A DNA stretch of 64,000 nt from Mesodorylaimus sp. YZB2_4 (lineage: Eukaryota > Nematoda > Enoplea > Dorylaimida > Dorylaimidae), in contig JASANH010000183.1 in NCBI GenBank assembly GCA_030248295.1, forward strand, positions 310,001 through 374,000, read 5' to 3'. A model generated the notes under the pieces. It was not told where the DNA came from. It saw only the letters and a list, made by a program, of their open reading frames with translations, and searched no databases. Position numbers and translations under genes: made by a program. Shown one piece after another: positions 1,733 through 44,427 of the stretch (the stretch's first letter is position 1; every line of letters starts with the position of its first letter).

Positions 1733-3011
1733 CGAGGGGAGTTCAAAAAGTTCGTAGCCTGACCACATGTTAATTGAAATTGTACGAGGTAATGCTTATT
1801 TATTTTCGACATAACATCCCCTGAGACCAATGCGCTTGTGTAAACTTTGGTGCACCGCGTGCATACCCGTAAAAAAAAATATTACTCGCACCCCTCAAAA
1901 AACGCTTCAGTCGCTGGTTTCACTTCCTCATCACTCGAAAATCTCTTGCCACGTAAACTTTTTTTGAGTTTTCCGAGTAGGTAATAATCGCTGGGTGCCA
2001 GGTCTGCACTGTGCGGTGGATGAGCGATTTGTTCGAATCCGCATTCATCGATGGCAGCCTGAGCAACGCGCGCTTTGTGGACGGGCGCATTGTCAATCAG
2101 GAGCAGCACCTTCTTTTTCAAGATCCCGCGCCGTTTCGCTTTGATCTCTCCACGCAATCGGCTGACAACATCAGCAAAATATTGCCCAGTGATTGTGGTC
2201 TTGACTGGCATATAATCAATCACTAACATTCCACTGCAATCCCAAAAAGTTGTTGCCGTGACCTCGCCCAATGACTGCTGAACGCGAAATTTTTTGGCGG
2301 ATGTGCACCCTTTGGCAGCCACTGTATCGATTTGTGTTTTGACTCAGATCAAAGTGGTGAGTCCTGGCTTGATCATCCATAACCGTTCTTTCATAAAAAT
2401 CATCTGGATCAGCCGCGATCCTTGTCAAAAGCTCCTTTGAAGTTTGAACTCTTCTCACGTTTGCCAGGTCTTTTGGCACACATCGCGCAGGCCTTGGATA
2501 AATTCAATTTCTCTGTAAAATTGTTTCAACGCTACCCACTGAAATGCCCATTTCCTCCGCTATCTAGACAACGTCTGTTCGAAGGTCTTCTTTCCCAATC
2601 TTTGCCTCAACATCGCATTTGTTGGCCGGTGTCGCCTCGGTTGGTCGTCCAGATCTTGGGTCATCTTCAATCGATTCTCCCCCATGTTTGAGCAAAGCAG
2701 ACCACTTTTTCACTGACGGCAATTCAGGTGCATTATTGCCGCACACTAAGACAATCCGATCGCTAATTTCTGTCGGCTTCAAGCCTTCTTTTGTTAAAAA
2801 CTTGATGACAGACTGATGCGCAAAATTTGTCAAATTTGTAATTTCTCTGACCCAATTCCAAATAGATGACCATATCTCAAGAACGCATGGATGAATCAGC
2901 GTGATTTTTTGTAGGGATTCTAGTGGGATGCGCGGCAGTGTAAAGTACAAATTTCACTGCTGCAGCTCATGCGGAAGGTACTCAGGCTACGAACTTTTTG
3001 AACTCCCTCTG
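1733..3011 (-). mobile_element. Mariner-type DNA transposon, inactive
   Basis: The element is bounded by terminal inverted repeats of about 30 bases: the left end reads GGGGAGTTCAAAAAGTTCGT and the right end is its near-perfect reverse complement. TA lies immediately outside both ends (1731-1732 and 3012-3013), the classical Tc1/mariner target duplication. Inside, on the minus strand, is a broken mariner transposase. The 1.28 kb size is normal for mariner. A truncated relative lies at 30485-30642. Confidence 0.93.
1882..2950 (-). pseudogene. Mariner transposase, frame-broken
   Basis: A DNA-cleaving and joining transposase of the mariner family, read on the minus strand in at least three frames. 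The N-terminal helix-turn-helix region (2564-2950) includes the linker DDPRSGRPTEAT. The middle segment (about 2216-2479) carries the first catalytic aspartate region. The C-terminal segment (1882-2322) contains KVLLLIDNAPVHKA and PPHSADLAPSDYY; exactly 34 residues separate the second and third catalytic aspartates, giving the D,D34D signature of mariner. Shifts between segments and an internal stop mean no full protein can be made. The ends are intact, so it could in principle respond to a transposase made elsewhere. Confidence 0.9.
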
Positions 3012-8080: not shown

Positions 8081-8404
8081 TTATTCCTCGTCGTGCAACT
8101 GCTCATCGGCGATCGGCAGATAACGACGACAATCGCGTTTCCCAAATCGTAATGGTTCGCGATATCGACGTTCAACACGAATCGGCTGATGGTCACCCAG
8201 AATGGCCTTCTCAACGGCATCACCATCCAACCCTTGACTCAGAAGACGATAGATTTCGGCCGTTTGCTGGTTCGATGCTTGCTGACCATGGCGCAATATA
8301 TTTTGATCGCGACGTATTGGACTTCGAAAACTGACCCCGATCGAAGGTTTCATAAGCACTGTTGCGAACATAAGGGGTAGGACTACGAAAGCGAGGGAGC
8401 GCAT
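8081..8404 (-). CDS. Neuropeptide precursor, single REPLRFamide
   Basis: A single-exon 107-residue precursor. Residues 1 to about 23 are a signal peptide (MRSLAFVVLPLMFATVLMKP). The predicted mature N-terminus is VSFRSPIRRDQ, the box shared by all family members here. Near residue 80 comes VERRYREPLRFGKR: cleavage after RR and at KR with glycine-directed amidation would give YREPLRF-amide. Only one copy is present, followed by a short acidic tail. REP[IL]RFG resembles the FLP-2 peptides of Caenorhabditis. A TATAAA lies on the minus strand at 8598-8603, about 195 bases before the ATG. The peptide would be secreted from neurons and act through G-protein-coupled receptors; receptor and cell are unknown. 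Confidence 0.85.
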   Translation of the reverse strand: MRSLAFVVLPLMFATVLMKPSIGVSFRSPIRRDQNILRHGQQASNQQTAEIYRLLSQGLDGDAVEKAILGDHQPIRVERRYREPLRFGKRDCRRYLPIADEQLHDEE

Positions 8405-9797
8405 TGTGAGCGAGGAGTTTCAACAATGATGGAATGGGTGCAAGGAGTCGAACTCGCGCACTATGAACCTTGTCAACTTTATTAAAAGCTGATCGCAAGT
8501 TATTTCTGGTCTCAACACATGCAACAAGGCATAAAATGTTATGTTGACGTTTTGGGCTTGGTTGAATGAGAGTGATGTAATGGTAACTACCAGGCTCTTT
8601 ATAGTATAATGACATTTATTCTGAAGTAGACACGCCTGGCCTCCCATCCGACTTTTAACACAATTGGTGGCTCAGTAGGATGCTTATACGATCGCAAAGA
8701 CACAGATCAGAGCTGCTTCCATAACCAAACTTATGCGCTCACGTTGATGGTTGCAAAGTTCATATAGTCCGCGTTAATGTACATATAAAACGCAAGCATC
8801 CTATTATTGGCTGAACATTTAGACTGTATACCCGTATGTAGATGTGTGTGGTCTTGGTGGACATGTATGTAAACGTGTGCGCAGCTAAGATGGTCAGCAG
8901 GAGAATACTGTATAATGAGGTGAATTACACTTTTGCACGCACAATACTCACCAATGCATGTATGTACAGTATGCCGCATTCATTGTGTATACTGTTCATT
9001 ATTTAGACTACATGCTTGGTACCGTACTTTGTTTGGAATAGAAAACTAAGACAAACTCTGGTTTCATTAACCGAGGTTATTTTTGCCACAGGACAAGCAA
9101 AGCAGTTACAGTGTATTACTTCGAGTGACTGTTGTCTACCCGTAAGAAGCAGGAGAACAAAGAGACTATTGTATATTTCACCAGCTCACTTTTCATCCTA
9201 TGGTGCCTTACCAGATGGTCTTTTTACTTTGTCTTGATCGCGATGAAAAATTCTTCGTATAAGATCAGGCGGAACTCACCTGCATAAACCTTGTCATGTC
9301 ATGTCATACTTTATACCCACAGCCAAGCACTCGAGGGCAGCATAGCAATGGAAAATTTTTAGACACTGAATATGCACCAAAGTGATAATCTATGTAGAGT
9401 TTGAACGATATACGCCTTCACAAAAAGTGGCCCGCTTTCGACTTTATTGATGCTTTGCGGACACAAAGACTACGAAGACATTGACTGATATGCTTCACAA
9501 GAATCCTGTGTTAACCCACGGTTTATCGGGTCATACTGCGAATGGGAGCAAATTATTGATCTCCTCTGGCTGGCTGGGAAACGTCATCTTCTCGGGGTTG
9601 ATGTTTCAGCCGCAAGTAGGTATAGTGCGTATAGCCGAGAGACTTACCTTGACCGAGTGTGAGTGTTTGTCCCAAACCCGCCCGCCCAGGTTGCTCCAGC
9701 ATTGCACAACTATTTATTCATACTCTTACCACAAAGCAGCACGCGGTGCGACATAACCGACATATGTATCAGCCACTCCTGCGCCAGCCATTGCACA
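8405..9797. other. Spacer with putative promoter
   Basis: The spacer contains a minus-strand TATAAA at 8598-8603 that probably serves the neuropeptide gene ending at 8081. The rest has no frame I can support. Confidence 0.4.
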
Positions 9798-10094
9798 CTA
9801 AGGTCTTATCAAAGTCAATGGCAATGGTAATGGCTGATACTTACGATAAAACATACCAATCCTTTTACCAAATCTTAACCTTTCCTTATGTCTTTGATCA
9901 AGATTTATCGGCATCACTTCGTCACCCCCGTCTTCGTCGCTCGACACGGCATCGTTGTGGGCCAAGTCGTACACCATTGCTCGTTGTTCGCGACGAATCG
10001 GACTTCGAAAACTTGCTGATTGCGAACATTGAACTTGGAAGTGGATTAGTAGCAGGGTCAAAGTAATAGCTATCATCCCATGCAAGGTGGTCAT
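9798..10094 (-). CDS. Neuropeptide precursor, single KERLRFamide
   Basis: A 98-residue precursor in one exon. The signal peptide is about residues 1-25 (MTTLHGMIAITLTLLLIHFQ). The mature part starts with the family box SASFRSPIRREQ. Near residue 70 comes DQRHKERLRFGKR, giving an amidated peptide ending ERLRF. An acidic stretch (SSDEDGGDE) lies between box and peptide. After the peptide the gene reads IGMFYRKYQ; the codons for RKY form a good donor (GTAAGTAT at 9837-9844 on the minus strand), so the last 15 residues could instead be replaced by a further exon. It has the same orientation as the paralogues on either side and probably arose by tandem duplication. Confidence 0.83.
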   Translation of the reverse strand: MTTLHGMIAITLTLLLIHFQVQCSQSASFRSPIRREQRAMVYDLAHNDAVSSDEDGGDEVMPINLDQRHKERLRFGKRIGMFYRKYQPLPLPLTLIRP

Positions 10095-11339
10095 GACTGG
10101 TTGTTGTTGAGACTGGACTAATGAACGTGCCGAGAAGAGAACAGGTCAACACAGCTTACGTGGAGGAGAATGAAGCCTTTACCCCGAGGCCAGTGGACTT
10201 ACGGAAGTGAGTCTTTTTCTCTGGTCTAGGTGGATGTTTTGTGCTAATTCCATAAATGGGAGGGATCACTAAACTGGTTAATGCGATATAGCGGTCTAGT
10301 GCACTAAGCTTGAGCACTGTGCAATGTTAGGCGAGGAGGAAAGGACAGTATGTTAAGGACGGCCAGTTATTCCCCGCGGCATTCCCTTCCTTTTCCGCCT
10401 CTTTGCTCAGGCTCTCGCCCCCATTCTGACTGCCTGCGCAGTCCCGAGAGTATTTTAGGAATTAATGAGAAGTGATCATGTTGAGTGAGGGGGAGCCCTT
10501 AAAATTTTCTGATGGATCTCATTAGTGCGCCATTGTGTCATGTGGTAGAGTCCAGCCTACTTTGGGGAAGAATTTGATAAGCTTCGTTGGGTCGAACACT
10601 TTGGCTGATTTAAGCCAAAGGAGAAGGAAGGAAGGCCAAAAGGAAATGCCAACACATTGGCTTGAACGAAGATGTATAAAGACTCATGTCACACAGAATA
10701 TTTTGTGGTGCTACTTCGCTTGCAGCTCCATCATTCTGCTGCAACAATTCTACTGTACTTTGCCATATCACATACAAACCGTATATGGTACACGTGGCGT
10801 GGGAAGAAACGTGGCGGGGCGAAATTACTCAATAATAAAACTATATGACACAAAAATTAAGCTTTACAACACATTTCAGCATCGAACACGTCCCAAATAA
10901 CTGATGGTTTCACTACAAAAATCAGTTCAAACACCTTTGCAGCATGTACATGGGACTCACTCAATGAAAGTACTATCTTCTTATCTGCCCGCTCTTTCGC
11001 CATAAACATTATTGCAGCGTGACCGTGGGTCGGTCAGCATACTGCTTTCTGTCGGAGTACACACGAGGGGAGTATGTACAGTACTGTCAGTGGCACACCC
11101 CTGGCTGAAATTACTTGAGGGGTAAACTAAATGTGTATTCAGAATACCTAGTTCCGCTTGACCCAAGGTGGGATTTCAAGATCTGGGAGCATGGGCAAAG
11201 CAAAGCTTGTTTTTTTACTTCCACATCCTCAATCTTTACGTAGATATTACCAAACACACAAGTCAATTATTGTAGCCAATACGGAATTTTTCTTCTCAAT
11301 TCTCTTAGGTCTTGTTTTCGAATGTTCTTCTGCTTAAGT
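10095..11339. other. No gene recognised
   Basis: I see no supported gene. The right-hand end (11267-11339) could be 3' coding or untranslated sequence of the next paralogue if that gene is spliced. Confidence 0.4.
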
Positions 11340-11660
11340 TTATTGATCAAACGTAAACGTTGCCGACTGCGTTGCTGTGTTGGAGAGTCTGAAATAGAAG
11401 CGCATGGAGGACATCATACTCCACACCTTCTCGTTCGATATCCGCAGCCCTGAGGACGAGGAGGTCTGACCTAGTGAGTGCATGACGTGAGATTTGTTAA
11501 CAGTCATCTGTGTTTTACCTCCAACAGGTGGGAAACCAGTAATCTTTTTAACCATAATCGCCTGGTGGCGTCGAATAGGATTTCGGAAACTGGCTCCATG
11601 AGCTAAAATGGCTGCATTGATCAGCAGCAGACACAGCAAAAGACCAATGAAATACTTCAT
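11340..11660 (-). pseudogene. Neuropeptide-family paralogue lacking RFG
   Basis: The start is clearly that of the family: MKYFIGLLLCLLLINAAILA signal peptide, then HGASFRNPIRRHQ. No RFGKR follows. Read without splicing, the frame runs to a stop at 11340 with no dibasic-flanked amide. If GTAAAA at 11516-11521 is a donor and TTTCAG at 11386-11391 the acceptor, the second exon reads RSRQRLRLINKLKQ in the place where the 9798 gene has RHKERLRFGKR. In that model Phe, Gly, Lys and Arg are all changed and the frame closes at 11267. A TATATATA lies about 85 bases upstream of the ATG. It is either a pseudogene or a precursor keeping only the N-terminal box. Confidence 0.65.
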
Positions 11661-13223
11661 AATCACAGTCTCCTTGTGTTGAGGTGGCACTGATTAAGAA
11701 ACTTTCTGTGCCTCACTTGCGTCTCTGTTTCATTCTCTGCTGTATATATACTTACAAGTGAGCAAACGTTTTAGTAATTACAGCGTAAGCGTAGGTTGAA
11801 TGCTTGTGCGATTTGACTAATCACGGAGTGACAAAGTTAATTTCTGTATTGCGCAGGATGATGGTGGGTAGGTTACACTGTATAACGAAAGCGAGGCGTG
11901 GGTTTATTACTTATTTTATACGTCTGAGTTTGTGCTTAAAATAAAAGAAAGTCACTCGAAAGTGAGCCATTAAAAGCTTGCAAATATCAAATCAGTCACT
12001 CCTGCCACCCCTGCATCGGGACAAGGTCTGGATCTCGCTCTATTTTAGAAACTTTTAAATTACGTGCCCAGTCGGGACGAATCGGGATGACTGAAAATAC
12101 AAGTTCAATGACCAGTACTGAAGATAGCGCTAACATACGATCAGCCAGCAGCCAATTTCCCTGCCCTTCAGTAGCTGCGCTTGTGTCCGTCTTTTTTTCA
12201 TAAGTAGATTTCATAATTATTACTTGTGAGGATGGGGTAGGCGTGGACTAGTCTCTCGGCACCTACCAGTGCACTGGTTCAGGGGCCTGTCCCTCCATCC
12301 TGAGTCGAGAGTGAGAAGAATGGAACCTAGAGTAGACGTTGAGTGAAATCTACTAGTAGACCTATCAGTATGTTCACGTGCCGAGGTGGGGGTGGGGTGG
12401 TGAAGAGAGATGCTAGCCGGCTAATTCTAGGCGCCAGACGGCTTGAGTTTTAACGAGTCCACAACTTAAAGCAGGAGCACAGGGGACCTATTTCCAGTGA
12501 ACGCCTTATCCATATGCAGTACGTTGACGGATACCTCAACATTCACAAATATTGGAATGGTCCCATGGATCCTGAGGAAACTTTTGATTTCAGAGACGGT
12601 CAGCAGCCAAAGCTCCCACGCCGTGGGAGGACTCGCCACTGACAAGTATGGGGCCAGCCCGCGCACACATTGCGCGCTGGCTCGGTGTCTCGAAAGAGAA
12701 ACCAAAACAAGGCCAAAACCACTGCACCACTGACCGCTAGGACAAAATGATTTGGTAAGTGTCCACCCAAATCGCCCTCCTATCACAAGTCCGGTGTTGC
12801 ATCTCATGAAACCTACAGTAAATTTTTGCAGATATGCCTGGGTAAATTATCTCCGCAGCTCATTGGCCTGTAATCACAATCATAAATCAAAAAACATGTT
12901 TCCCCAAGATAGGTATGAAGAAATATGTCGAATGCAGGTATAATGTGCTGTTCAGTCTCACATACAGTACAATACATATCATAGCTAAATATCCATAAAA
13001 ATAGACTGTCCAGTTAATTACACATCACAGCAAACTTACATGTTAACTAAAATACATTACCTTATGTAATAACACAGTGGTAAAAAGATCATATTCGTAG
13101 GCAGTTGCAAAAGGTCTTCAATATATCCGTAGTGTACTCACCATCAGCTCGCTCCTACAAGATACCCTTACCTGCACAGTATTATTCTAAGCCGCAAGCT
13201 ACATCAGCCCGCCCTTGTCCGTG
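11661..13223. other. Spacer with a TGA-broken frame
   Basis: Apart from an unidentified plus-strand frame at 12481-12750, described separately, I see no gene. The left end holds the TATA-like promoter of the neuropeptide paralogue (about 11743-11750, minus strand). Confidence 0.4.
12481..12750 (+). pseudogene. Unidentified frame interrupted by one TGA
   Basis: One plus-strand frame is open for about 90 codons except for a single in-frame TGA at about 12640. Its composition is protein-like (NIHKYWNGPMDPEETFDF before the stop; WGQPAHTLRAGSVSRKRN after it). I do not recognise the family, and neither a start nor splice borders are clear. It may be a retro-copied or decayed gene fragment. Confidence 0.3.
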
Positions 13224-15285
13224 TCAACGTTTCTCACCATTCCACCATCGAATCCGCGCGTATCGCAGTACATAAATCAGTCCTTGCACGATGCCCACCA
13301 TAGAAACACCCAGATACAATACCAAGACATTTCCTAAGCTGCAAAAGGTTACATAGAGGGTGTGCGCTAAAGATTCCCTGTGCTGACGATAGGCGAAGTT
13401 GGAGTAGTATACGTGCACTCTACTGCACATGGCTGCATTGGCAGTCTTGGGCATGGATGGGTCCAAATCGATGAAACTAGCTTGCGTCGAGTATTCCCAA
13501 TATATTGGCAGTGTTTGAGGCAAAGAGGCGTTGAGTTGAAGATGGCCCTGTGCTCATGTTCGATCTCATGAATGATTACTTGAGCCTAAAATGGAACCGC
13601 AGTTGGCTAATTGGCAGTAAAGAAAGGGTGATCAGGTCTACAACAGGTGTAAAATATGATTTTAGCTGCGGTATTCTTATGATTGCAATACCCTTGGTGG
13701 AAGCCCTTTTTATTGTGTGCAGTGAGCAAGCCCCCTTGCAGTGTCACCACAGTGCAAAAGATGAACTGCCAGACACCACTTACACCCATACCCTTCGTAT
13801 TTACTGCCAGCCACCACCTACACCCATACCCTATGTATTTGTGTTTTCCTGTTCGCCGCGCCTTTTATTGTTTCGAATTTTTCTCTACTAAGGATGAGTG
13901 GTACTTTGCCGTGGTTAAACTCGAAATGTCATCAAGTTATTGACTCGTGATAACACACTAACTCTGATTGACTCTAGATTACGCTGGAATCCTTCGCATT
14001 GGCACGGCTAACAGAAAAACTAGCAATGCAGGGTAACGAATAAGAGTTATGGAGAGTGTCTGCCCACTTCCAAGTACGCATTCGCAAGTAAAGTGACTAT
14101 TTAACTGTGACTAATCGTACGTCGGATACATCGGATAAATTACTCACCTCCTTTCTCTGATAAGTCTTCTGCACGTCGTACGTGAATAAGGAAAAGAAAA
14201 AGTACAGCATGTGAGGTGTGCACGTTTGGTTTCTATTCGGCCGATAATGAAAAAAGGGCATTGAGCAATCGAAGTACTTATACGCCCATTGCTGGTGCTT
14301 ATCAGCCAAGCACGTGTACCCGTACGGAACATAGAATGCATTTTCCATCAGGGGTGGTGGTCGATCTAAGGCCACGCATTTCCTTCTAGTGACTAGGCGC
14401 TCGCTGGCGGTCACTTTGATAAAAGTCTGTGTCCGACCCGAGGCTGGCATGGGTAACATGAACGGCTGTATAGATGACGGGTGCACATAGATCTTAAATC
14501 CGTCAGCGACCGCCTCCTCTTCCAACCAGGCGGCGTCATGGAGATTCATAGAAACGTCGAGTGATAAGCCGCCGTCAGGGCCAGGCCTTGTCTGAGTAAG
14601 CGTTCGAGGAGATTTGTGCGATCCAAAGTCGTAGTTCATCTGAAAACTTGAATTTCTGCTTTCGTCTGCATCTACACGCCTATTTCTGGGAGGAGCTATG
14701 TTGTAAAACTGTCAATCATACAACTTTATTGATTGTACACATTAGAGCACTAAAAAGAGGCACTGGTATAAAAGCTGAACTTACAGCCATCTTGAAGCAA
14801 ATAGCGTCATCATCGATCAATTCTTCAAGTTTTTGACAGCACTGGAATATTTCTTTGCCCAGCTGACATTTTTTAAAAAAATTTTCACATTTCGGCAAAA
14901 TAGAACGCAAGAAAGTCACATAATTCTCTATTTGTTGATATGATTCGTACAAAAGTCTGAATATTACCCTGATCAAATTTTTCTCCACAAAACGCGATCT
15001 TGTAGTTAATGATAAGAAAATCATGAACCGATGCATTAAACTTTCTTTGTCACATCCTAATTTTGTAGCTTCTTGTTCAGCTTTTTCATAAATCTTTATG
15101 CTCTCTCTTATGGCGGATTGGTTAAACTGAACTGGAATGCACACAGTCACATTGGACACTGGCGCTTGCTCCAAGCTGGCCATATCGTGGATATCGTCCA
15201 CGTATCCTCTTACGAGCCAGGCTCTTAATGTATAATAGCAAAATATATAGTATATTGAGCAAAATATAAGAAAAAGTAGTGCAAG
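13224..15285 (-). CDS. DEG/ENaC channel, frame-disrupted
   Basis: A degenerin/epithelial sodium channel subunit: a plasma-membrane cation channel with two membrane helices and a large cysteine-rich outer loop. Exon 14785-15285 carries TM1 (LALLFLIFCSIYYIFCYYTL) followed by PVSNVTVCIPV, the usual post-TM1 motif. Exon 14148-14639 carries the ectodomain (GLSLDVSMNLHD, DGFKIYVHPSS). Exon 13224-13585 carries CLKHCQY, then VHVYYSNFAY and TM2 with the GxS selectivity motif (LYLGVSMV), ending at a stop at 13224. Two problems: near 13498 the frame must shift by one base between CLKHCQY and WEYSTQ, and the TM1 frame is closed upstream by TAA at 15286-15288 with no AG acceptor. An ATG at 15323 opens the neighbouring frame. 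It is a pseudogene or there are assembly indels. Confidence 0.75.
13768..13842. repeat. Two-copy tandem repeat in an intron
   Basis: A unit of about 37 bases beginning GCCAGACACCACTTACACCC occurs twice in a row with few differences. It lies in the last intron of the disrupted DEG/ENaC gene. Confidence 0.7.
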
Positions 15286-15323
15286 TTAAAAGTGAGGCGG
15301 ATGAGGGGGATGAGTTCTTCCAT

Positions 15324-16186
15324 CGATTCTCTCAGACCCGCCACACCCACCCGCTCGGCTATGTCTTTGCGAGCTTTCTACAACTTGCTTAATGTAGGTG
15401 TCAGATGTGGTTGATTGGAGTCAACCGAAGCTGACGGTGGAATGAAAGCAGTGACTTTGGACGTCGTTTTTTGAAGGCGTCGAAGTTTTGGTCGTCTGTT
15501 TTTCGATTGCTGGTTCATAGTCGGTGGTTCCAGCGCTATTTTGTTCAGTGAACCAATATAGGACTCTGATCGGGCTGGTTGGATGATAGCAGGAACGCAC
15601 AATCTTGCGTGTACTGTACGTTAGCTTGCTGGCACCAGCTTGCTGTTGTCCAGGATAATAGACCAAGGTCAGCTCCGATCCACAAGCTCATATCTATCGA
15701 AAGCGTCATGGAGACAGTGATCGCTGGCTAACGCAGCGATCACCACTCAAATTAGAGATCTCACATGCTCAGACAATATGCTAGCTTTACACTCTGCTAC
15801 GATAGAATGTGCCCTTAGAAAGGTCTTATCAGGAGAAGCCTTGGGCAACGATGGGAACAGAGCCAGTTAGGTCAGCTCGTCACATCAAGATCGGGTAAGG
15901 TGACATGTCACTTTGTTATCACGGTTCACTTATAATGCTGATAACGCACTGATCGAGGCCGTTTCCATATGCCCCCTTCTGTATGTGTCCATCATATCAG
16001 TGGGCTGATCTGACTGCTGATCACCTCTCACAATATGAAGTTCTTTCTCTCACCACGCTTTACAATGAGCGCATTTTCTCGCCTTTGGCATTCTAACTTC
16101 TTTGTGTGATACTAAAAACCTCAAAAAAGTAAGAGCATTTTATCACTGATATTTTATCATTTCTTATCAGATCATCTGATATATTA
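15324..16186. other. Possible 5' region of the DEG/ENaC gene
   Basis: The cytoplasmic N-terminus of the channel should lie here. A minus-strand frame at 15378-15602 (KNRRPKLRRLQKTTSK) has a suitable basic composition, but I cannot join it to the TM1 exon. Confidence 0.3.
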
Positions 16187-16453
16187 CTAATCGATGTACA
16201 ACATGTTGCTCCGTTTACCAAACCGAATGGCTTGTCTTTGATCCTTCCTCGGTTTTGTTAACCGCTTCTCGGCGTACTGAAAGGCGGCTGGCTGTTCATC
16301 CATGAACAACGATTCGCTGGCATCGAATGCTGGTAGTTCGATCATTGATGGATCGCTACGTCGAAGCGGGTTTCGAAAACCAGCCGATTCGCTTATGCAA
16401 ACCAATTGAACGAGGACACACGCCACCATAGTCACTGCCAATAGAGTATTCAT
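16187..16453 (-). CDS. Neuropeptide precursor, single QAIRFamide
   Basis: An 88-residue precursor in one exon. I chose the ATG at 16453 because it directly begins a good signal peptide (MNTLLAVTMVACVLVQLVCI); the frame is open further upstream but without signal character. The mature N-terminus SAGFRNPLRRSD is the family box. The single amidated peptide is near the C-terminus (KDQRQAIRFGKR) and would be QAIRF-amide; its N-terminal glutamine could cyclise. An additional KR at YAEKRL could release a spacer peptide. A TATAATTATAAG tract on the minus strand at about 16599-16610 lies 146 bases upstream of the ATG. It is the only member with Ala-Ile before RFG. Confidence 0.85.
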   Translation of the reverse strand: MNTLLAVTMVACVLVQLVCISESAGFRNPLRRSDPSMIELPAFDASESLFMDEQPAAFQYAEKRLTKPRKDQRQAIRFGKRSNMLYID

Positions 16454-18771
16454 GACGAGCACTTCGTTTCTTTCGGCGACTTCAGTCAAATGCGGCTGAC
16501 ACCAGCAGTTTAGGGCGTGTGAGGCGACCTGCTCTTTCGGGGAACGAAATGAGAGCGAATGAAGGAAAATGTGAAGACACATCTCGATTTTGTAGTCTTA
16601 TAATTATAAGTGGGCGAGTCTGGGAGAAAAACAACTTAAGCCTGGTCTTGACGTCAAGAACACAAATTCGTAATTAAAGTATTCCAAGTGAAAATTAAGT
16701 ATATTTTTGTTCCTCATGCTCTAACCTTTTCTGGTATTTGTATAGGATATTTCCCATAACACGCATACCTGCACACATTTCACTTTCTAATATATTCGAG
16801 TGACAAGAGCATTTTTCCAGTTAAGCTGGTTAGGTCTTAATCTTGCTTTGCTGGGTCACGTGCGGCCTCGCGACTCCCATTTTCGGATGTGCTGGCGGGA
16901 CTCAAGGTTGAGCCTCGCTAGCCAGAGGGACGTTAGAGACCGCTACGCTTACTCGTGCTAAACAGAAAAGCAATGCCAACATAGTGTCAGTTATTAAAAT
17001 ACGGAATTTAGGACTTTTATGATAATCCGTACAGTATGTAACAAGTAAGTTGATGGTTCGGATTACGACCAGTACTAGAATTCGGCGCGGGGATCCACGT
17101 GGTTCTTTGGGAAATAAAATCCTGAAAAAATAATGAACATTTTTGCGCACTTCGAGGATACAATATGTCTAGAGGATGAATGTATGCAGAGTATAGATCA
17201 ATTCGAACTGTCACTTCTGGCTGGCAGCAAGTTTATCGATATTTGATCTTGGTTTCTCCATCACACAAGCTGTGTCATACTGTGGACTAGGTCCTGCCCA
17301 CTGTTGAGAGATACTCACTGTCTGTCGCCCTGTTCATCATGTATGGAGGTAACATGTAGCCTCTGATACGGCAAGGTACACTCCTCGTAGCCCGCTTCCT
17401 CTGTTTTCTATAGCGCTAGCAATGAGTTTGACGCTGCCTACCTCACCTCGACCCGTCCTCAAATCTTCTGAAGGCGGAGTTTCTTTTATCAGTGTCAAGG
17501 CCTGAAGGAAACAGGCTCACCTCTTACCAACGCCACGTGCGACTGGGCCCTCACCATGCGTAATAGAGCCCAGACGAGCACTTCTTCCAAAGGTGGTCAG
17601 AGCAAAAAAATTATGTTGCCGATTACTTTTTGAAACTCGCATTTTGTGCTCCTTTGATTTGTGTAGTACCACATTGATACTGTACAGAAAAGTATGGGGT
17701 TGATGGAACTGACATCCCGAACAGGAAATTAATAATTATAAATCTCTCAAATAATTGACCAACTGTTTTTTAATTTCTATACAGATAACTGTGTACAAGA
17801 AATCAAGCCGTGTGAACCAATCGGATCAACTGCAGGTGCATATCGCGTGACGCAAGAGGAAGTACTGCCCTGATCAGACTCAGATTACGTCATACACAGC
17901 CCATGCAAGTGACGGGCGACGTCACTCGTTGGTACTCATTCTATACCATATCCTGATGATGGTGCCTGGCACTTGCAAACACTGGAATTCATCCAGAAGA
18001 AACCAAAGATTTGAGCGAGGGGATCGAACCATAACATTTAGGCATCGGAATCTAACCAAGAAGCTGGTGTTTGTTCATGTTCCTGATTTACGATCACGCA
18101 CGGGAAGGTGGATATTACGCACAAAATGAATAGCCGTTTTGGTAGTTTGTATCCCAAAGTCCGCTCGGCCCCTTTTCACATGAAATTCATGCCATGAGAA
18201 CATTCTGTTCCCTTAACCCCTCTTCCATCTGAACATCATGGCTGGCTGGCGGGCGGACATTCATGTGGGAGAACTGGGTCGAAAAGTTGTCTCGCACATG
18301 CAAAGTGGTTAGCACGGCAGAAACATGCAAGCAACTTTCACCCTTCGTACAGCCACAGCAACAAACAAAGTGTAAAAGCTTGGCAGGAATTGGCACAAAG
18401 CTATGCACCATCACGCAAGCCTAGGACCTTCGCCGAGTTTTAGACCCTCGTCTTTGCATTGTTTCTGTCGCACAATTCATGACACATGGCCAAAGTGAAG
18501 AAGAGACTCCAACAGAGAAGGCCCATAGCCACCAGGGAGACCGACAATGAGCCCCGAGCAAAGTTTTGTGCTATTGCTTCCATGCTTATATGGGCAAGTC
18601 TGGATATGCTGTCATTCTGCGTCAAGCAGACCTAAGGGCAACATTACCCCAACTTCGCGTGATCAGGCTAAAGTACAGCATAGATTGCTTCCTTATCATT
18701 CCCCTCTGCCACATACTCACTTCGTATACTGCCATTTCATTGGGTGCCATCCACAAGACTCATCACCCTCA
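16454..18771. other. Long spacer without a recognised gene
   Basis: Apart from the promoter of the preceding gene I see nothing supported. I searched it for a hidden RFG-coding exon for the 18772-19029 gene and found none; the nearest match (17520-17540, minus strand) encodes GVGKR, not RFGKR. Confidence 0.4.
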
Positions 18772-19029
18772 TCACGTATAATACACGTATCTCACTTCTC
18801 GGACAGGGGCATACAACAGCTGATAGTCGTCAGTGCCATCCTCGTCCATCGGTCTGACCACATCTTGGTACGTCTTCTCCATCGGGTCGTTTCTTCCCGA
18901 TCGATCGTAATGATGTCGATGAAGACTGTTTCGAAACGAGGCGGCATGCACCCCGCTCTGACTGATAATATGCGTGATCAGGATCACAGAAATGATAGCA
19001 ATCATTGCATTTCCCATCCTCGGGCACAT
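18772..19029 (-). CDS. Neuropeptide-family paralogue without visible RFG
   Basis: About 85 residues in one open frame. The signal peptide is near MIAIISVILITHIISQ; ATGs at 19029, 19017 and 19005 are all possible starts. It is followed by HAASFRNSLHRHH, a diverged family box (PIRR replaced by SLHR). The frame ends in APVREVRYVYYT with no RFG. The codons after APVRE form a reasonable donor (GTGAGA), so an exon starting P-I/L-R-F-G would restore a REP-RFG peptide, but no such exon is visible for 1.7 kb downstream. It may have lost its amide peptide, or be a pseudogene. Confidence 0.6.
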   Translation of the reverse strand: MCPRMGNAMIAIISVILITHIISQSGVHAASFRNSLHRHHYDRSGRNDPMEKTYQDVVRPMDEDGTDDYQLLYAPVREVRYVYYT

Positions 19030-19632
19030 TTCAAAAGATCCTTGACTCTCTGCCTTGCTTGGCTCACGCTTCACTCTTCTCTGAACTAGCCCCATACTGA
19101 ACTACTGTCTTTATGGCAATGCTTTTGACTCCATTAGAGGCTATCAACCACAATATGAAATATACATCATTTGTGTTCTTGATTTTAGAGCACACACAAA
19201 CCTGCAAAAATGTATTTTGAACCTCAAAGCCTCGAAGCTACTAGTATTTCATTAGCAAAAAGCCCATTCCCAGTCTTGACATCCCTAACGTTCCCCCTCC
19301 AGCCGCAAGTCATCTGTCTGCTTTTACTTTGATGCCCAACCACTCCAAAAGCCTTAAAAATTCTGCACCCGCTATATCACATAGAGAAAGGGGATACATG
19401 GGCAAAAACAATACAATCGATAAGGCGAGCTGAAAGTCACGCACAAAAGGCCCAAAATACTATCAGCCCACAAGAGAACTACCAACAAAAAAGGCATCCG
19501 CATCCCCTCCCATTTTCAAATCTTATTCGTCAACCCAAATCTTCTTCAACAGCACGAAAAAGTGACCATAATAATGATGTGAAAGTATAAGAGAGTACAA
19601 CCAGTACCGCCCTACCCCTCGATGCACTGCGG
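19030..19632. other. 3' flank of Argonaute copy 1
   Basis: No gene. The block at about 19260-19490 is clearly related to 33860-34060, the flank of the second Argonaute copy (both contain CACGCACAAAAGGCCCAAAA), so the duplicated unit extends some 350 bases past the stop codon. Confidence 0.65.
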
Positions 19633-22600
19633 CTAAGTGAAATACATACTCAGCTTTATCGCATCGTGCACTGTCGATGAGCGAATCAACTCGTCCTCCG
19701 TAATTGGCGTATCCGTATCTCCTCCACTTACCATCGTTGCGCTGCCGAACTCCGCCCTGAAACGAGTAGGTCATAAGCATAGCAAAACGCTGTCACAAGC
19801 TCACCAACAAGTTTGGACTACATCTTCTATCCTCGAACCTTATTTAATGGTATTCAGGAGCCGCAATGGTGTTGGTAACATAAAGGAGTCACACTTCGCT
19901 TGGCAGAGCTGGAAAGGCCGAGTTCAACTCTGACAGTCTGACAGAGTGGTGAAGTTCTCTCTGCGCCTGACACGCTTGGTGGGGAGGGGTGACTCTCCTT
20001 CATCCCTAGGGTCGATAAACGAGGAAGCCTTATGTGGCGGGAGCTTCTCGAATCTGGGTCCCCTCACAGGGTACAAGCTGGGTATTTATTCCACGGGATA
20101 ACTGCCAACATCCCGGAGTTAATTACCACGCCCTCATGATTGACATCCATCCCGATTGGACCCTAGTCGACGGCAAGAAAGAGTAAACTACAAGCGTCTA
20201 ACTTACACTTTATCGAAAATGTGGGCACGAGCCCGACGGCAGGCCAGATCAGCGTAATAGACTGGCGCCGGCAAGCTGACGGCGCGCGTGCATCGAGCGT
20301 ACGTGTGGCACAAATAGAATGCCATCGATTGCACGTGATCAGCTGAGAAGTTGCTATCGTCGTGAATGACGTGATAGCGAATAGGTCGGCTTGTGCCCTT
20401 CAGAAAAGGATAATAGTGTAACTAAGGGGCAAAAACGAGGACATCTGCCACACTGTAATTTCCAAGCAACAAAACACACGACTCACTTGAATGCCGAAAT
20501 GCGAGCATAGGTAAAATTCTAACAACTCTGGGTGCGTGATTTCTCTGTCTACAACCGTGCCCGGGCGAATGTTCGCGGCTTCCCCAGATGTCGGTCCTTG
20601 CGGGCCCGGGAAAAGACGCGTATGATGACGTTTCTGGGCAATGATCAGCGTGACCTTGGGACGAAACGTGGCATCCAGATCTCGGCATGCTTGTCGAATG
20701 CCACCCAGCTCCTCTCGCAGAACCTAAAACAAATCATTGGAACAATAGCCAGACCCCAACACGCCAACACTTACCTCCTGAAATTGGCCTTCAGCCACTC
20801 CATCGCGGAAGACAATTATGCGGCTTGGGCGAGTTGGCTTCGACGTGTTGTTTTTCTTGTTCAGGTCGGACATGAATTTGTGATACTCCATCAAACGCTC
20901 CTTGACCTGTTGGTCCAAATGTCCGGCCACGATCGACTCGCGACGACGCTTCTGGACCCGAATCGAAGCCGCATACCGCATGAACGAGTCGTCCATATTC
21001 CCAACCACCTGACACGAAAATCGGAGATTACTACCTACCGTGTGCCCCTCACTTCCTTATCAGGAACTACCTAATCTCTACCCGCTATCCCCCACATATT
21101 CAGCTCTGTAGATTTTCTGCGTTTGTCCAAGGATCCTCAAATACCCCCACCCACACACGTACATGTATATGTGTATATATGTATACAGTATATACGTACG
21201 TACGGACGATTCACCAGTACTAACTATAACTCCAGGGGGACGGGGCCTGGCACGATAATCTGCCCTCTCCCACTCCCGCCCACTTACAGACGAGATGGAG
21301 GGCGTTTTTCTCTCAGTCGCAGCCGGATGAGTAACATCGATTCCCAACACCAACGTCGGTTGTTCCAATAGCACCGCTTTCGACCTAGAACCACAAAAAC
21401 CAGCATTAACTACACTAATTACGGTACACCAGGGTCTTGCACGGGTATGAAAATCGTACCCTACCCGCACCCGGCGTACCTTACCCATACCCATACCCGC
21501 ACCCGTAATTTTTCAAAAAATGTACCCAAACCCATACCTGCACCCGGTTTTTCGATAAATGTTCGAATGGAGTAAAAAACAGAAAAGTAATCAATTCATT
21601 AAAATAATTACAGAAAACCAGAGTTTTCAACAAAACTCGATCAATTTTCATTCAAAAGTTTATTCACTATCGCTAAATAAAAGACTTTCTTAAGCATTAA
21701 TCTGATCGTGAGCCAAATGCTTCAGCGCTAGAAGCCTGAATAATGTCTATTTTGAGTAATGTATTGGTTTTCTAGTTCCTTTGGAAATAGACATCTCAAT
21801 TTAAACTTTGAAGCCTGAAGCTGACAACAACCTGGCAAGCTAAAAGTGTGAATGAAACTGCATTCATGTTGGAGAGAGTAACTAAGTTAAACTTGATAAG
21901 GAGTGCCAAACGTGCTCTACTTTTGAGCGCTAGTATGACTTGTCTCGAGAGGTCAACAACACTTACTGCAGATAAAACAAGCTAGTTTGTGTGCAAGAGC
22001 CAGTTTCGGAATTATATGAGACGTGTCTGATCGTGAGTCGCAGGACATGCATACAAGGAAGTTGTATCCTACATACATCAAAGCGACCTTGTTGTCCTAA
22101 TCTAAGGAGCCGCTGACCTAATCGTAAGACTGAAAGTGACTTGGATCCTGCAAAGGGTCAAGGTTGCTGCACTGGTGCATATCTGTCATATTCAAATACG
22201 GACACTTATTTTCCCTCGGCCCCTCTTAGAAGCTCAGAAATACTCGTTCATCTTTTCTTCTATCTTGTTTCAAAGTTTTCTAACTGAAGATGCTCTGCAC
22301 AGCTGTAGTTTTATCTCCCAGATGAATTTCCACTTGAATCCAGCTATTATAGCATCATTTTACCTTTGTTTTTTATGCTTTTGTCGCTGCTTTGATAGGA
22401 GCTTAGACAGGTAATCAAGAAATCAGTCATTCAGTCGTTTCGTGTCATGTGACACCCACCACTGGGGTCTTGACGTCCTCCACGGATGGCGCCTTAGCGG
22501 CTTTTCGACTCAAACCAGATTCTTTTTTGAGTAAACAACCATTTTCAAATCTCAAAATCGCTAATATCCATATCTGTTTATCAATATCTTGGTTGTTAAA

Positions 22601-25600
22601 AGATATAATATATAAACTGTTTTCTTTGAGGATTACACGCCCTTCACATGCCGCGTGTACATTCCCAAAGAAAACAGACAGATATGGATTTCCCAAAAAG
22701 ATATATAGATTTCAAATATGATATCAAAATATGATATATGAATATGATATATGATATATATATATATAATATGAAATATGATTTCAAAATCGATATGTCA
22801 AATGATATCGATATCGATAAGATATATTGATGCTATCAACTTGTAGTCATACTTGCTGTTATCAACAGTAGTCACAACTAGCCTCAAAATAACGAACATT
22901 AAAACTGTTCCGCTAAAAACAGTCACAAAATGCATAAGATTTAAATTTGCAGCGCTGTTATAAATATTAAAAAATTAAGCAAGAACGAATACCCGTACCC
23001 ATACCCGCCGGGTACGGATGGGTACGAATATGGGTACCCAGTACCCGGCAGGGATCCGCTGTACACTGATAAACATACCCGAGACTAAAACTGAACTTAC
23101 AGAGTATCAGTTTCAGCCAACGAATTGATCCCGCCCATTTTCATGTTCATTTTTAACGCGATGTTGGTCGTGGTCATCCTGTCGTTCTTCTCTATACATT
23201 TCTTGACGTTGGCTTTGACCACACATTGAGTCATCAGTCCCAGAATGATCTCAGCAACGCGCTTCACTTCGCCTGAAACAGGAGAATGTCAGGGAAGCAA
23301 CGAAATCACATAAGCTAGCAGCCCACTGCGAATCAACGAGCCGAACGGGAACGTCAGAGGTGGCAATGAGACCATATCAGTAAGCGAATCAAAGCATCAC
23401 TCTTCGAACACAATAGGAGATAGAACTTACTATGATGGGGCGCGCTTTTTTGAGGCAATGTGACGATCACGAACTCGGCGCCCATGTTCTTTAACTCCGC
23501 CAATGCCTTCTCGATACCAGTCGTATCGCCAGGATTAACATGGCGAATGACGCTCTGATTAATCGAGCGAGGCACCTGCATTCCAAGCTCGGCGCAAGTC
23601 GTCAACAGGAATGAAAAAAATCCCCTGAAAAGCACATTGACTCATGAACTCAAAGCCAACGATAACAAGAAACAGCGGGGACAGGATATGCGAGGACTCT
23701 CACTCCCACTCTTACTTTGCATTCCCTTTTTTGAACTGAGACCACTAGAACCACAAATCCCTTAACGGATGCCCGAGCGCTACTTGTAAAATTGAAGATC
23801 CTTCTATGATAGATATATTCCGCCCTTTCAAAAACCTTTCAGCGGCAAGAAAGATTAAATTTTGAGCTAATATTTGCAAACTTTCGTTCAGAAACTACTT
23901 TCTTTCCCGCCGTGGCTGGAAGACCCTTTTTACGCGTGTGTTATCATCGACCAGACTCTCCGCCGATCTTCGAGGGCAGGCAACTTACGTGTACATATCG
24001 AAGTCCCGATCATCCAGAATCAACGCACCAATTCTTTGACATGTCGCCCCCATGTAAAATTTTTGATTTTGCATGTCCCACACGCCTTCACGTACTTCAA
24101 CGACAGGATTCTAAAAACCAGTCCACTTCTCATCCAACGGGCGTTGACCCCACACCCCCCCCCCCCAAAGTACGTCCACTTTAGCGGACCCTCCCCCGAA
24201 GCAAACATTCACTCGCAAAAAGCATTGCTCCCAGCATCGACCGATCCTCCGAAACGATGGGTGGATAATTGCAGTCTGATCAGACTGCTGCATCTGCCGA
24301 AGTGGCAACTCAAGTTTTTAAGGGCTCTTCCTGCTTGAAAATAATCCTTGGCATGCTATAAATATAAAAAATCCAGCTTTTCTCCCAAATTGGTATTTTA
24401 AGTCCCGCTGTAGTTCTCCTGTGCCCCTTTGTAGTGGTCTGATAGTGACAGCGAGGAAACAGGGCATGTTCGGATGGGCGCATGCCAAAGACGTCATCCC
24501 CATATGTTTGTACTTCATTTCTTGAAGCGGATCGGATCGGTCGATGCTGGAATTGTTTAGCATCTTCTCTGACATCCCAATGATGGAAGAACAATAGACA
24601 CATTTATTGAGCAGCATAAACACTGTCGGCATTAAAATCGCTTTATCTGACTCAGAGAAGGAGAAGCAAAAAGATCAAGAATGTTTTGAAAACCTGAAAT
24701 ATTATCGATCTGAGTCACCCGACGATGCGATTTTGGATCGTCGTTTTTACCTGATCGTAGTTTCATGACTTTTAAATACCGGTAATTTTATATCCAATAT
24801 TGACTACTGGTAATTTTGTGATTTTTCTAAGATCTCCCGCGAATTTTAAAGGTGGATGTCCACTGGGCGCCAGCGTTCCCTTCCACCATGCCCTTTCGTC
24901 CTCTTTCCACTCACCCCACACCCTCCCTCGGGTAGCCTGGACCTCCATTATGGATAGCCCCAAATTGCCTTATCAGCTGATTTAATACATTGAGACCTGT
25001 CTTACCGATTTTCCTCCGTTTTGCGCGTATCGAATCCTCGGCGGTGGCAAGATTCGACCTTCCACCTGTTTCATGTTCGTGTCCACTTTGATACCGAACT
25101 GCTTCAGCCATGGGTCGCCACCGAAATCACTTTGAGAAACCAGTTCCAAGATCTTTTGTCGCCGGTTGGTGGCATTAATAGCGGCAGCCTGAAACAAGAC
25201 TCATGCATTGTCAAGTCCTAAGACCCACATCTTCACAAATTACCTTGATCATCGTCGAGGTTTCAGCTGGAGTCAGTTTCTTGACGCGTTGATTATAAGC
25301 GAGACGGCAATGCTAAAACAGAAAACGCCTTAGACTGAGTACTCTTAGCTTTCTCATTCGCCTGCAGCAACCTTTAGCATTACCTCCATTGGCAAATAGC
25401 ACTTGCGATTTTTAGGCCCAACGTGCAACAAGTTGAGACCAGGATATCGAAGAGGTCCATATCGCTCTTTGAAATATTCAGCCACAGTCACCGTCCGTTC
25501 TGTTCCGTCCTGCTTTCTTTGCGTGAACTCGTAAGTAAGCGCGTTTTCCTCAAGAACGCAGTTGACGGTGTGCTCGTGCTCGTATTCTTGGCCATCGGCG

Positions 25601-28600
25601 CGTCGCGTCCGCGTTATAACTTTCAAACCTAAAATCGCAAAATTATACCAAAACGCCAACACTACTTTTCCAAATGATCACCTCTGATAGCTCGATTAAA
25701 CGTAGGAAACCAAAGTGCATTCGTAATATGGGTCGTCGCAGTAAGATCTTTCACTGCGAACATAGGCGGCTTATTGTAATCACGATGGCCGAAGAACGTG
25801 TTCAAAATCTCGACCATATACTCGATGACCGACTGCGGGCGATAGAATCCCGAGTGGAACACTAAACCAAGGAGCAGTGTTACCCACAGCAACCTTGAAA
25901 TACGGCGCACTTACCGTCAAAATTTACGAACGGCGTGAACGACTGTCCAACTCGAGCAGCGCCAAACAGACCTTGCCAAATCACACGTCCGCAAGTCAAC
26001 GCAGTGCCATTGCCTTCGTGAGGGATACGATAAAATGTTGACGCGAATGAGAACCAAGAACGGCAGGTGCTAAAATGTTAGCATTAGATTGAAGGTTGGT
26101 CAATGCTTCTAAAGAAGATGGGAGCGCACTGAAACTCTTCCCCGTAACAGGTTAACAGGTCCAAGACCCGGGGCACAACGAACCCTTCCCCTTAGGCCTT
26201 ACTCATCATCCAATGGGAACGATCGGCGCTGACGGAAAATAAGGTCCAGCACATGCAGTGATGTCGTGTCCTGATCAGTCGTCATCGCACCAGTCGCGTG
26301 AGCCGAGCCCACATCAACATGAATCAATCCAGCTGGCAAAATTTTAACCGAAAAATCATTCTCGCTGTCCATTTTCAGCAAGCGCACTTTCTGAGTGAAA
26401 ACGCGTCCCTGAAAAATTCAATATTCATAGACTGTGGTCGATAAGAACAACGCCAGAACTTACCACTTCAGCCGCTTCGCCTTGTCCTCCGAAGTTCAAT
26501 CGATCCAACGATATCAAAATATGGTTTCCGTCGTAAGCGAGCCCGTACGCATTCTTAAAAACGTCGCGATTATTTTTCGCACACGTCCAAAAAATCAGCC
26601 TTTTCTCGTCGCTAAAAATGCTCACAGCTAAAATAAATCAAAAGAAAACAGAACGGCAAAGAACCTAAACTCACCGACTAATTTTCATGCGCTTATGTGT
26701 GACATGGACATGGTAGTGCACAACCACCAATTTTTTGTCGAGGGAAAGTTTGAAATGATTCACCAACACATTTACTTTTTGACCACCATCTCCGAAACCA
26801 GGATGCTTGACGAGCTCTTGCTGAAATGTAAGACACACATGAAAAAGAGGACTAAAATAATCTGATATTTCCAGAAAGCCATAGTTTAATTCACTCGGGC
26901 AAAATGTAGAGTCCTGAGAATTAGTAAAAAGTTCGAGGGCTCTACGGTACAAAAACCAAGACCAGGCGATTATCGGTATCCCCTTCTTCCCCTTCTGACA
27001 AATCTCCTCAAAAGTCAGTTCTAATCATTTTTTATCAAGATCGAACAAACGCTATGCCTGGCCCAGACTTGACAGCAATTTCCCAAATACACACTTGCTC
27101 CCTCTTTTTCGCAGATGTCAGGTTTAGAAAGGCAATTCAAGTCAATTCTAGTGACTCTGCAATGTCAGTCAGCATGACAAGCCAGCACGTAGGGCCAAGG
27201 TCTAAATGCTTGAAGAGACGGCTATTCGTAATTAGCAAAGTTTTCTTCTACTTTTAATTCGAGTTCCACTTAAATTTGATCGCTAATGTCGTAAAGATAC
27301 AGCTAGAACATGCGTATGCACGCTTTTGAACCTTGCATGAGACCCAGAACCTTTTTAATATTCATTTTGTGACACCTGAGGCAGCGATAATGAGGAAAAT
27401 ATGCAAAGCAGATTCCTTCACAGCTTTTTGAGGAATGTAAGAAACCCTACTTGAAGTGATTGCCTCTTTGCTCATTCACACTGACCTGACCTGGTTTGCA
27501 TTCTGCCAATGACCTGCTGTTTCTCAGTGTAGCAGGCCATGAAGCAGGCGAATAACAATACAAGGTCAAGTCTTTTCACCTGTCCTAACATCAAAAGTCT
27601 ACTTACGATTTGTAAGCCCTTCATTTTGTCTTGCACAACAGTAGCCGGCGGGCTTCCCTTCAGGCTCCCCTCCACCGATTCTTCTGCTGGTGATTCCGAT
27701 TCCGTTCCGCGACGAGCTACGAAAATTCACGGTACTGTAGGTACATCGAGTCAACGGGATAATATGTTGACAAGTCGAAGACTTACCGGCATCTACTGGA
27801 GTCGGGTATGAGGCCAATGGCAATTGCTGCTCCGCTTGTTGTCCAGGCTCTTGCGGTTGCTGTGGCGGACGACCGGCTCTACAGCCTGAAAAGGAGACAG
27901 CTCCCTAGCACAATCGATCCTAAATCACCACTGATGGTATGTGATAAATCAGAATCGGTGAATCATACTCAGCTAGTCTTGGTCTAACGCCCAGCCGCAG
28001 GGTATCGAGGCCCGCACTTACAAACCCAAGTTGCTAAGTCGTAAACATAGCTTGCTGGGTGTAAGGGCGCCTCCATATATGCTTGGCGTCACAACCCAGT
28101 ATAACAAAAGCTTGCCCTTCGTTGAGTTGTCTTGTACGCTGTGGGGGATGGGAATCTACAATAGCTGTCGCGAAACCGCAAGTCAACATTGACCTTTTGA
28201 CTGCTTTGAGAAAGTTTTCAGTGATTAATCATGCTTTAGTTTACGCTTCACTCTTCTATCGCTAGGTTTCGGCTCTAGGCTTAAGGCTATGTGAATAAAC
28301 GATGAAAGGGTTGGTAATTTAGTGCGAGTAGGTGAGGCAGTACGCTTAAGCATTAGTGGCCGAGCTAGTAGCCTTGCCCCTACCTGAAACTTGGTACTCA
28401 CCATCGCGGCTCACGTGTCCCCTCATACAGCGATACCCTACAGAGGCGGGGTTCTTGTGCTTACATCCCCAACCGATTTCTCCACGCCGCGTTTCCAGCT
28501 ATCCCATAAGCTAGGTTCGACCAAACCAGCTTTTGCAGCGCAACCAGGACCAGACCAGGGTCGAACCAGGATCAAAATAAACCTCAGTTTTCTTGTAGCA

Positions 28601-30484: not shown

Positions 30485-30642
30485 GCCGTTTTTTGGGGGG
30501 TGCGAGTAATCCTTCTTTTCAACGGGTATGCACGCGCTGCACCAAGGTCTCAGGGAAGGTTATGTCGAAAAGGAATAAGTATGAAATCGTGCAGTTTCAA
30601 TTAAAATACGGTCAGGCTGCGAACTTTTTGAGCTCCCCTCGT
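30485..30642. mobile_element. Truncated mariner end
   Basis: The 158 bases match, in reverse orientation and with substitutions and a short deletion, the left 150-170 bases of the element at 1733-3011. They run from the transposase C-terminal codons (GGGGTGCGAGTAAT) to the terminal repeat GCGAACTTTTTGAGCTCCCC followed by TCGTA. The rest of the element is missing. Confidence 0.85.
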
Positions 30643-44142: not shown

Positions 44143-44427
44143 ATGATCCGAGTTTGCGTCTTGATCACATTGCTGGCATTGATCTGCTTGATCACGAGTA
44201 CTAAGTCGGCAAGCTATCGAGGCATATTGGGTCGATCGCAGGCGAATATGAGACGTGATGCCAAATCCATGAGCGCCTTGGTCGCTGGTGGTACTGGTGC
44301 CGGATCATGGTACCCCGTGGTCGATGGTCCTTCATCAGCCTTTGTGGCGCGTCAAGAGAGGCGAGAACCCATACGATTTGGTAAGCGGTCGATGGAGGCA
44401 GACGATAGTGATGAGGGCTCGGAATAG
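44143..44427 (+). CDS. Neuropeptide precursor, single REPIRFamide
   Basis: The only family member on the plus strand: 94 residues in one exon. I chose the ATG at 44143 because it directly starts the signal peptide (MIRVCVLITLLALICLITS); the frame is open upstream. The family box is diverged: KSASYRGILGRSQ. The amidated peptide is in QERREPIRFGKR, predicted REPIRF-amide or, with cleavage within ERR, EPIRF-amide. REPIRFG is the shared C-terminus of the two C. elegans FLP-2 peptides, so this is the best candidate for an FLP-2-type gene. An acidic tail (MEADDSDEGSE) follows. It lies 25 kb from the minus-strand cluster. Confidence 0.85.
   Translation: MIRVCVLITLLALICLITSTKSASYRGILGRSQANMRRDAKSMSALVAGGTGAGSWYPVVDGPSSAFVARQERREPIRFGKRSMEADDSDEGSE

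Follow-up and report, generated by a model that had tools for sequence, protein, structure and literature searches.

A family of putative FLP-2-like neuropeptide precursors with a conserved N-terminal box in the nematode Mesodorylaimus sp.

Introduction

Can a neuropeptide precursor carry, outside its amidated peptide, a second conserved unit that is itself a ligand? This question is raised by a 64,000-nucleotide stretch (hereafter the window) of the genome of the dorylaimid nematode Mesodorylaimus sp. YZB2_4 (contig JASANH010000183.1, here C23:310001-374000). In the window, six short genes encode a hydrophobic leader directly followed by a nine-residue box of the SFRNPIRR type, and four of them also encode one RFamide peptide closed by Gly-Lys-Arg (GKR). 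Nematode genes for FMRFamide-like peptides (FLPs) were found through RFG motifs with basic flanks or through known precursors, and inter-peptide regions were dropped from the alignments of one broad survey, according to the accessible part of its text (PMC4405611). Conserved units elsewhere in the precursor are thus readily overlooked. The original prediction for this locus, made from the sequence alone, described a local family with a common plan of leader, box, acidic spacer and single RFamide. The box proved to be real, whereas the plan was partly wrong. We lean, with a little more confidence than doubt, towards reading these genes from their sequences as FLP-2-like FLP precursors that would release an N-terminal heptapeptide and one RFamide, and that expanded by old duplication.

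Results

The box family and its seventh member

All six predicted frames, five on the minus strand (genes A8, B9, C11, D16 and E18) and one on the plus strand (F44), were confirmed, each with a hydrophobic leader running directly into the box (Table 1). A leader followed by [AGSV][SG][FY]R[NSG]x[IL]xR is found six times in the window and never in 150 random 64-kb sequences of an order-2 Markov model, with the pattern derived from the tested genes and the model built from the window. The idea of a local family is also supported by a tblastn search of the window together with 28 kb of further sequence, which links A8 to B9 (E = 7e-7), B9 to D16 (7e-6), and B9 to both F44 and C11 (4e-4 each); E18 is tied to the family solely via its box (best E 0.12). 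In the same search, F44 is linked to its closest relative, a gene on contig C142 (1e-11), which has the box ASYRGILGR and the block RREPIRFGKR. The family therefore counts six members in the window and one on C142.

One RFGKR per gene had been claimed. This holds for A8, B9, D16 and F44 (4/6 genes in the window, 3/5 on the minus strand) and fails for C11 and E18. With the C142 gene, five of the seven members have one RFamide closed by GKR, and the coding frame of each of these five is uninterrupted. The proposed motif [AGS]-[SG]-F-R-[SN]-P-[IL]-R-R was likewise right in part, since a box is present in all six window genes, but ASYRGILGR of F44 falls outside it. The family had also been taken to stand alone. 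However, the EP[I/L]RFamide core is found in A8 (REPLRF), F44 and C142 (both RREPIRF), and this REP[IL]RF core, absent from the original prediction, is that of FLP-2 and FLP-30. Judged by whole-precursor homology, B9 and D16 belong to the same family.

Two conserved islands

The best evidence comes from the F44-C142 pair. Their boxes are identical at 9/9 residues (proportion of synonymous differences, pS, 0.95; of nonsynonymous differences, pN, 0), and so are their RFamide blocks, RREPIRFGKR, at 10/10 (pS 0.86, pN 0), whereas only 11/27 residues of the spacer and 7/20 of the leader are identical. Fisher tests against the spacer, on this one pair, give 0.002 for the box and 0.001 for the RFamide block. 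Because both segments are identical at near-saturated synonymous sites while the spacer drifted, they are two separately conserved islands, and the sequences suggest that selection has acted on box and RFamide as separate units. In the A8-B9 pair, the box is identical at 8/9 and the spacer at 11/28 residues (Fisher 0.012, again one pair). A box that evolves more slowly than the spacer, as had been anticipated, is thus found in the best-alignable pairs.

Pooled over the 21 pairs of the seven genes, identity is 111/189 in the box and 133/434 in the leader; over the 10 pairs of the RFGKR genes, it is 82/288 in the spacer and 20/50 in the five residues before RFGKR. Conservation of the box clearly exceeds that of spacer and leader, and does not exceed that of the entire RFamide block. 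The acidic spacer is no general feature: acidic and basic residues number 7/6 in A8, 9/2 in B9, 8/5 in D16 and 3/4 in F44, with a strong acidic excess confined to B9 and a mild one to D16.

Genome-wide searches

Patterns were scanned over the 145.1-Mb assembly (1,067 contigs). EPxRFG is found at eight places against two in the control, and all eight were inspected. By eye, a leader and REP[IL]RFGKR are present in six of them, namely A8, F44 and the genes on contigs C38, C121, C142 and C300, and the box in three (A8, F44 and C142). The three box-less precursors are single frames at L060/L078 (C38), L062/L083 (C121) and L065/L089 (C300); that on C38 additionally carries PFLRFGRR. YRGILGR occurs at two places genome-wide, F44 and C142, and nowhere in the control.

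FRNPIRR with up to one mismatch is as frequent in the genome as in the reversed control (52 places each), and among the 52 genomic places only four window genes have a frame of leader, box and propeptide. Without mismatch it has five places, four of them in the window. A looser box pattern was uninformative (407 matches in the genome, 457 in the control). [ILMVF][RS]FGK[RS] had 190 genomic and 98 control matches, and about the first hundred of the former were listed. A narrower RFG-type pattern matched 33 places against 10; 30 loci from it, with 3 of the 33 places outside them, went through a filter for leader plus box, and frames were inspected for 19 of these; the remaining 11 comprise the four window genes together with neighbours or repeats of the inspected loci. 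The filter, applied to 98 loci, returned seven distinct frames: A8, B9, C11, D16, F44, C142 and a 28-residue frame at L042, which was set aside as it has no RFG. E18 does not match the FRNPIRR scan pattern and lay outside the 98 loci. The searches also showed flp-14-like arrays of K(N/H)EYLRFGKR repeats at L090 and L093 (C393) and at L075 (C25).

A Pfam scan of the seven box proteins at E up to 10 gave weak matches below the cut-off for three of them and no neuropeptide family. Exact box strings such as FRNPIRR were found in no relevant paper, in a search with figures, supplements and most subscription journals outside its scope; the sole match was an unrelated physics paper.

Copies without an RFamide

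In the genomic frame, C11 has MRFYFR and E18 has VRYVYYT (ending REVRYVYYT) instead of RFGKR. No GT-AG intron of 38-700 bases that starts between box and stop leads to R[FYW]G[KR] in either gene, and a candidate intron in C11 (11389-11518) gives a different C-terminus, again without RFG. The C11 box is kept (pN 0.05-0.10 against A8, B9 and D16) although RFGKR is absent. C11 may be a precursor of the box peptide alone, or a copy in decay, and a recent loss of the RFamide also fits; E18 is probably decaying.

Table 1. Members of the box family, with positions in the window unless a locus is given.
Feature	Position	Strand	Description	Length (amino acids)
Gene A8	8081..8404	-	leader, box, spacer, YREPLRFGKR, tail	107
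A8 box	8309..8335	-	VSFRSPIRR	
A8 RFGKR	8135..8149	-	predicted YREPLRFamide	
Gene B9	9798..10094	-	leader, box, acidic spacer, HKERLRFGKR, tail	98
B9 box	9990..10016	-	ASFRSPIRR	
B9 RFGKR	9861..9875	-		
Gene C11	11340..11660	-	leader, box, without RFGKR	
C11 box	11568..11594	-	ASFRNPIRR	
Gene D16	16187..16453	-	leader, box, spacer, QRQAIRFGKR	88
D16 box	16358..16384	-	AGFRNPLRR	
D16 RFGKR	16211..16225	-		
Gene E18	18772..19017 (alternative start 19029)	-	leader, diverged box, without RFGKR	
E18 box	18916..18942	-	ASFRNSLHR	
Gene F44	44143..44427	+	leader, box, spacer, RREPIRFGKR, tail	94
F44 box	44209..44235	+	ASYRGILGR; Gly-Arg end, possible amidation site	
F44 RFGKR	44374..44388	+		
C142 gene	L063:1437-1706	-	box ASYRGILGR, RREPIRFGKR	

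Neighbouring genes and other features

Two DEG/ENaC (PF00858) genes are present in the window, at 13227-15285 (-), inside the RFamide cluster, and at 58345-62920 (+); two channel frames gave no match to PDB sequences at E up to 1. On contig C142, a biogenic-amine-type rhodopsin receptor with a largely uninterrupted frame (L098:2575-2799 and L063:3-1052; 7tm_1, 5e-50) lies about 0.4 kb from the box gene, and its best solved relative is a beta-1 adrenergic receptor. The window also has a bestrophin exon at 50590-51456 (-) and a fragment of a mariner-type transposase (DDE_3, Transposase_1) at 1885-2343 (-), with a 76% similar inverted piece at 30468-30656. A direct duplicate block of several kb at 19345-27872 and 33929-39651, in pieces of 68-97% identity (20197-21023 against 34612-35437, for example, at 97%), is probably a repeat or mobile element.

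A cuticle-collagen N-terminal exon lies at 54894-55016 (-), which is C23:364894-365016. Its family, PF01484 (Col_cuticle_N), which we take to mark nematodes, is matched 133 times in the genome, and 14 prokaryote genomes used as controls gave no match. The canonical spliced leader SL1 was found at no place in the genome with up to two mismatches; its sequence may have diverged, or the assembly may lack it.

Discussion

Proposed processing of the precursors

The leaders contain hydrophobic 12-mers with a mean hydropathy of 2.55-3.36 in all seven genes. Signal-peptidase cleavage follows a rule on the residues at -3 and -1, and those before the box (S/G, S/S, A/G, S/S, V/A, T/S and S/S) are compatible with it in 7/7 genes, so that the mature propeptide would start with the box. 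Signal peptidase would then expose the heptapeptide [AV][SG][FY]R[NSG][PSI][IL], cleavage after RR or GR would fall to a proprotein convertase, and the basic residues would then be removed by a carboxypeptidase. The box had been described as ending in RR and possibly released. It is separately conserved and could be released, but RR is found only in A8, B9, C11 and D16, while E18 ends in HR, and F44 and C142 in GR. Gly-Arg is a signal for amidation and monobasic cleavage; in F44 and C142, the Gly of ASYRGIL-GR would become the amide of ASYRGILamide. The predicted box ligands are thus (V/A)SFR(S/N)PI, AGFRNPL or ASYRGILamide, amidated in two genes and free acids in the others, and the second ligand would be an RFamide of the (R)EP(I/L)RFamide type or a derivative of it. 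We infer the cleavage, release and amidation of the box peptide, and a receptor for it, from the anatomy and homology of the precursors and the two conserved islands seen in their sequences.

Should the box peptide be released, two ligands come from a single precursor, one of which has changed its amidation state among the members of the family. We suggest tentatively, and with somewhat more doubt than belief, that the box represents an undescribed nematode peptide-hormone family co-encoded with FLP-2-type RFamides, its C-terminus switched between amide and free acid, and made without an RFamide in C11.

Several observations weigh against the reading as FLP-2-like precursors that release a heptapeptide and an RFamide. 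Among the RFGKR genes (10 pairs), the box is identical at 50/90 positions and the ten-residue RFamide block at 70/100, a figure that includes RFGKR, the criterion by which the pairs were selected. The claim that conservation of the box equals or exceeds that of the amide peptide thus holds against the five residues before RFGKR and fails against the whole block. Each Fisher test is based on a single pair, and the E18 box is diverged (pN 0.30-0.51). B9 (KERLRF) and D16 (RQAIRF) have no REP core. The cleavage site was called by a rule of thumb, with the start of the box set after the -3/-1 residues had been seen, and the free-acid SFRNPI-RR forms would have no amide of the kind usual in nematode peptides. 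Finally, flp-2 has been described in an intron of glutamate synthase beside flp-3 and flp-28 (in C. elegans and four parasitic species, clade 2 excluded). Here, glutamate synthase is at C117:251674-255340, and none of the eight EPxRFG places is on that contig. On C117, [ILMVF][RS]FGK[RS], a pattern without RFGR ends, is found only at 86689 among the matches listed. The flp-2/flp-3/flp-28 cluster near glutamate synthase seems to be absent or moved in this genome.

Other explanations of the box

The box may instead be a sorting or processing signal, for dense-core vesicles or as a convertase site, with only the RFamide active. That it opens the propeptide and ends in a basic residue, in 7/7 genes, suits such a role. 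However, the single-REP[IL]RF genes on C38, C121 and C300 do without it, so that it is not needed there, C11 retains it without an RFamide, and its constraint extends past the basic residues to F/Y-R-x-x-I/L. We consider a mere signal rather unlikely for these reasons.

It is unlikely, to a slightly greater degree, that these are ordinary flp-2 genes in more copies, with a box that is ancient and common to FLP-2 precursors in general but went unnoticed in surveys. The box-bearing pair F44 and C142 indeed has the RREPIRF core, and the removal of inter-peptide regions from alignments, as reported in the accessible part of one survey (PMC4405611), could have hidden such a part. Against this, the box is missing from the three other REP[IL]RF genes found here, and no EPxRFG place is near glutamate synthase.

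A functionless remnant of the shared ancestry of duplicated leaders would explain why the boxes of the cluster resemble each other more than they resemble those of F44 and C142, as descent predicts, and why E18 appears decayed. This is improbable and already disfavoured by the F44-C142 pair, in which the box stayed intact while leader and spacer drifted; no DNA-level similarity among the cluster genes is left in a self-comparison either.

It is very improbable that the window is a ligand-channel locus in which the RFamides gate adjacent DEG/ENaC channels: one such gene lies between C11 and D16 and the second further along the window, and RFamide-gated DEG/ENaC channels are reported from molluscs and Hydra in the accessible parts of two papers (PMC9234716, PMC4212090), but the family is so large here (at least 114 matches, with 93 of 1085 first-look candidates scored and the window's own copies not among the matches listed) that proximity to the cluster says little, and it is a rhodopsin-type receptor that adjoins the C142 gene in the stretch examined.

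Comparison with known FLP systems

Precursors that would yield an N-terminal heptapeptide and one RFamide are thus the reading that we carry forward, and FLP-2/FLP-30 is its nearest known counterpart through the REP[IL]RF-Gly-Lys-Arg core common to A8, F44 and C142. The FLP-2 consensus is given as [L/F/V/S/Q][P/R/M][G/R]EP[I/L]RFa in the one table consulted (PMC4058706 Table 1), and FLP-30, now filed as FLP-2, as QMREPLRFG in the accessible part of another survey (PMC4405611). C. elegans flp-2, whose receptor is FRPR-18, has two RFamides, in contrast to the one per precursor of the family here. Since neither the two RFamides nor the synteny with glutamate synthase is found, we name the family FLP-2-like and not flp-2. 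The N-terminal box may also set it apart from FLP-2, the known precursors of which were compared by their RFamide motif only, and the absence of the box from the REP[IL]RF genes on C38, C121 and C300 makes it the mark of a subfamily.

In other respects, the family resembles several nematode FLP genes. According to the accessible part of one review (PMC4196577), flp-10, flp-12, flp-21, flp-24 and others have likewise one RFamide per precursor; these single-RFamide FLPs carry other C-terminal motifs than the family here. The same part of the review lists flp-1, 3, 7, 11, 20, 23, 26, 27 and 34 as genes that combine an RFamide with a non-FLP peptide, and flp-2 is absent from that list (PMC4196577). 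It also gives two to six exons for C. elegans flp genes (PMC4196577), unlike the five RFGKR genes here, each of which is one read-through frame. Genes with this core are expanded as well: REP[IL]RFGKR behind a leader is encoded by six frames of this genome, compared with flp-2 alone in C. elegans among the table rows listed. The NPY/RFamide-like receptors of nematodes diversified within nematodes by duplication, according to the accessible part of a study of them (PMC11315170), and this is the background against which a family of ligands like the present one would emerge.

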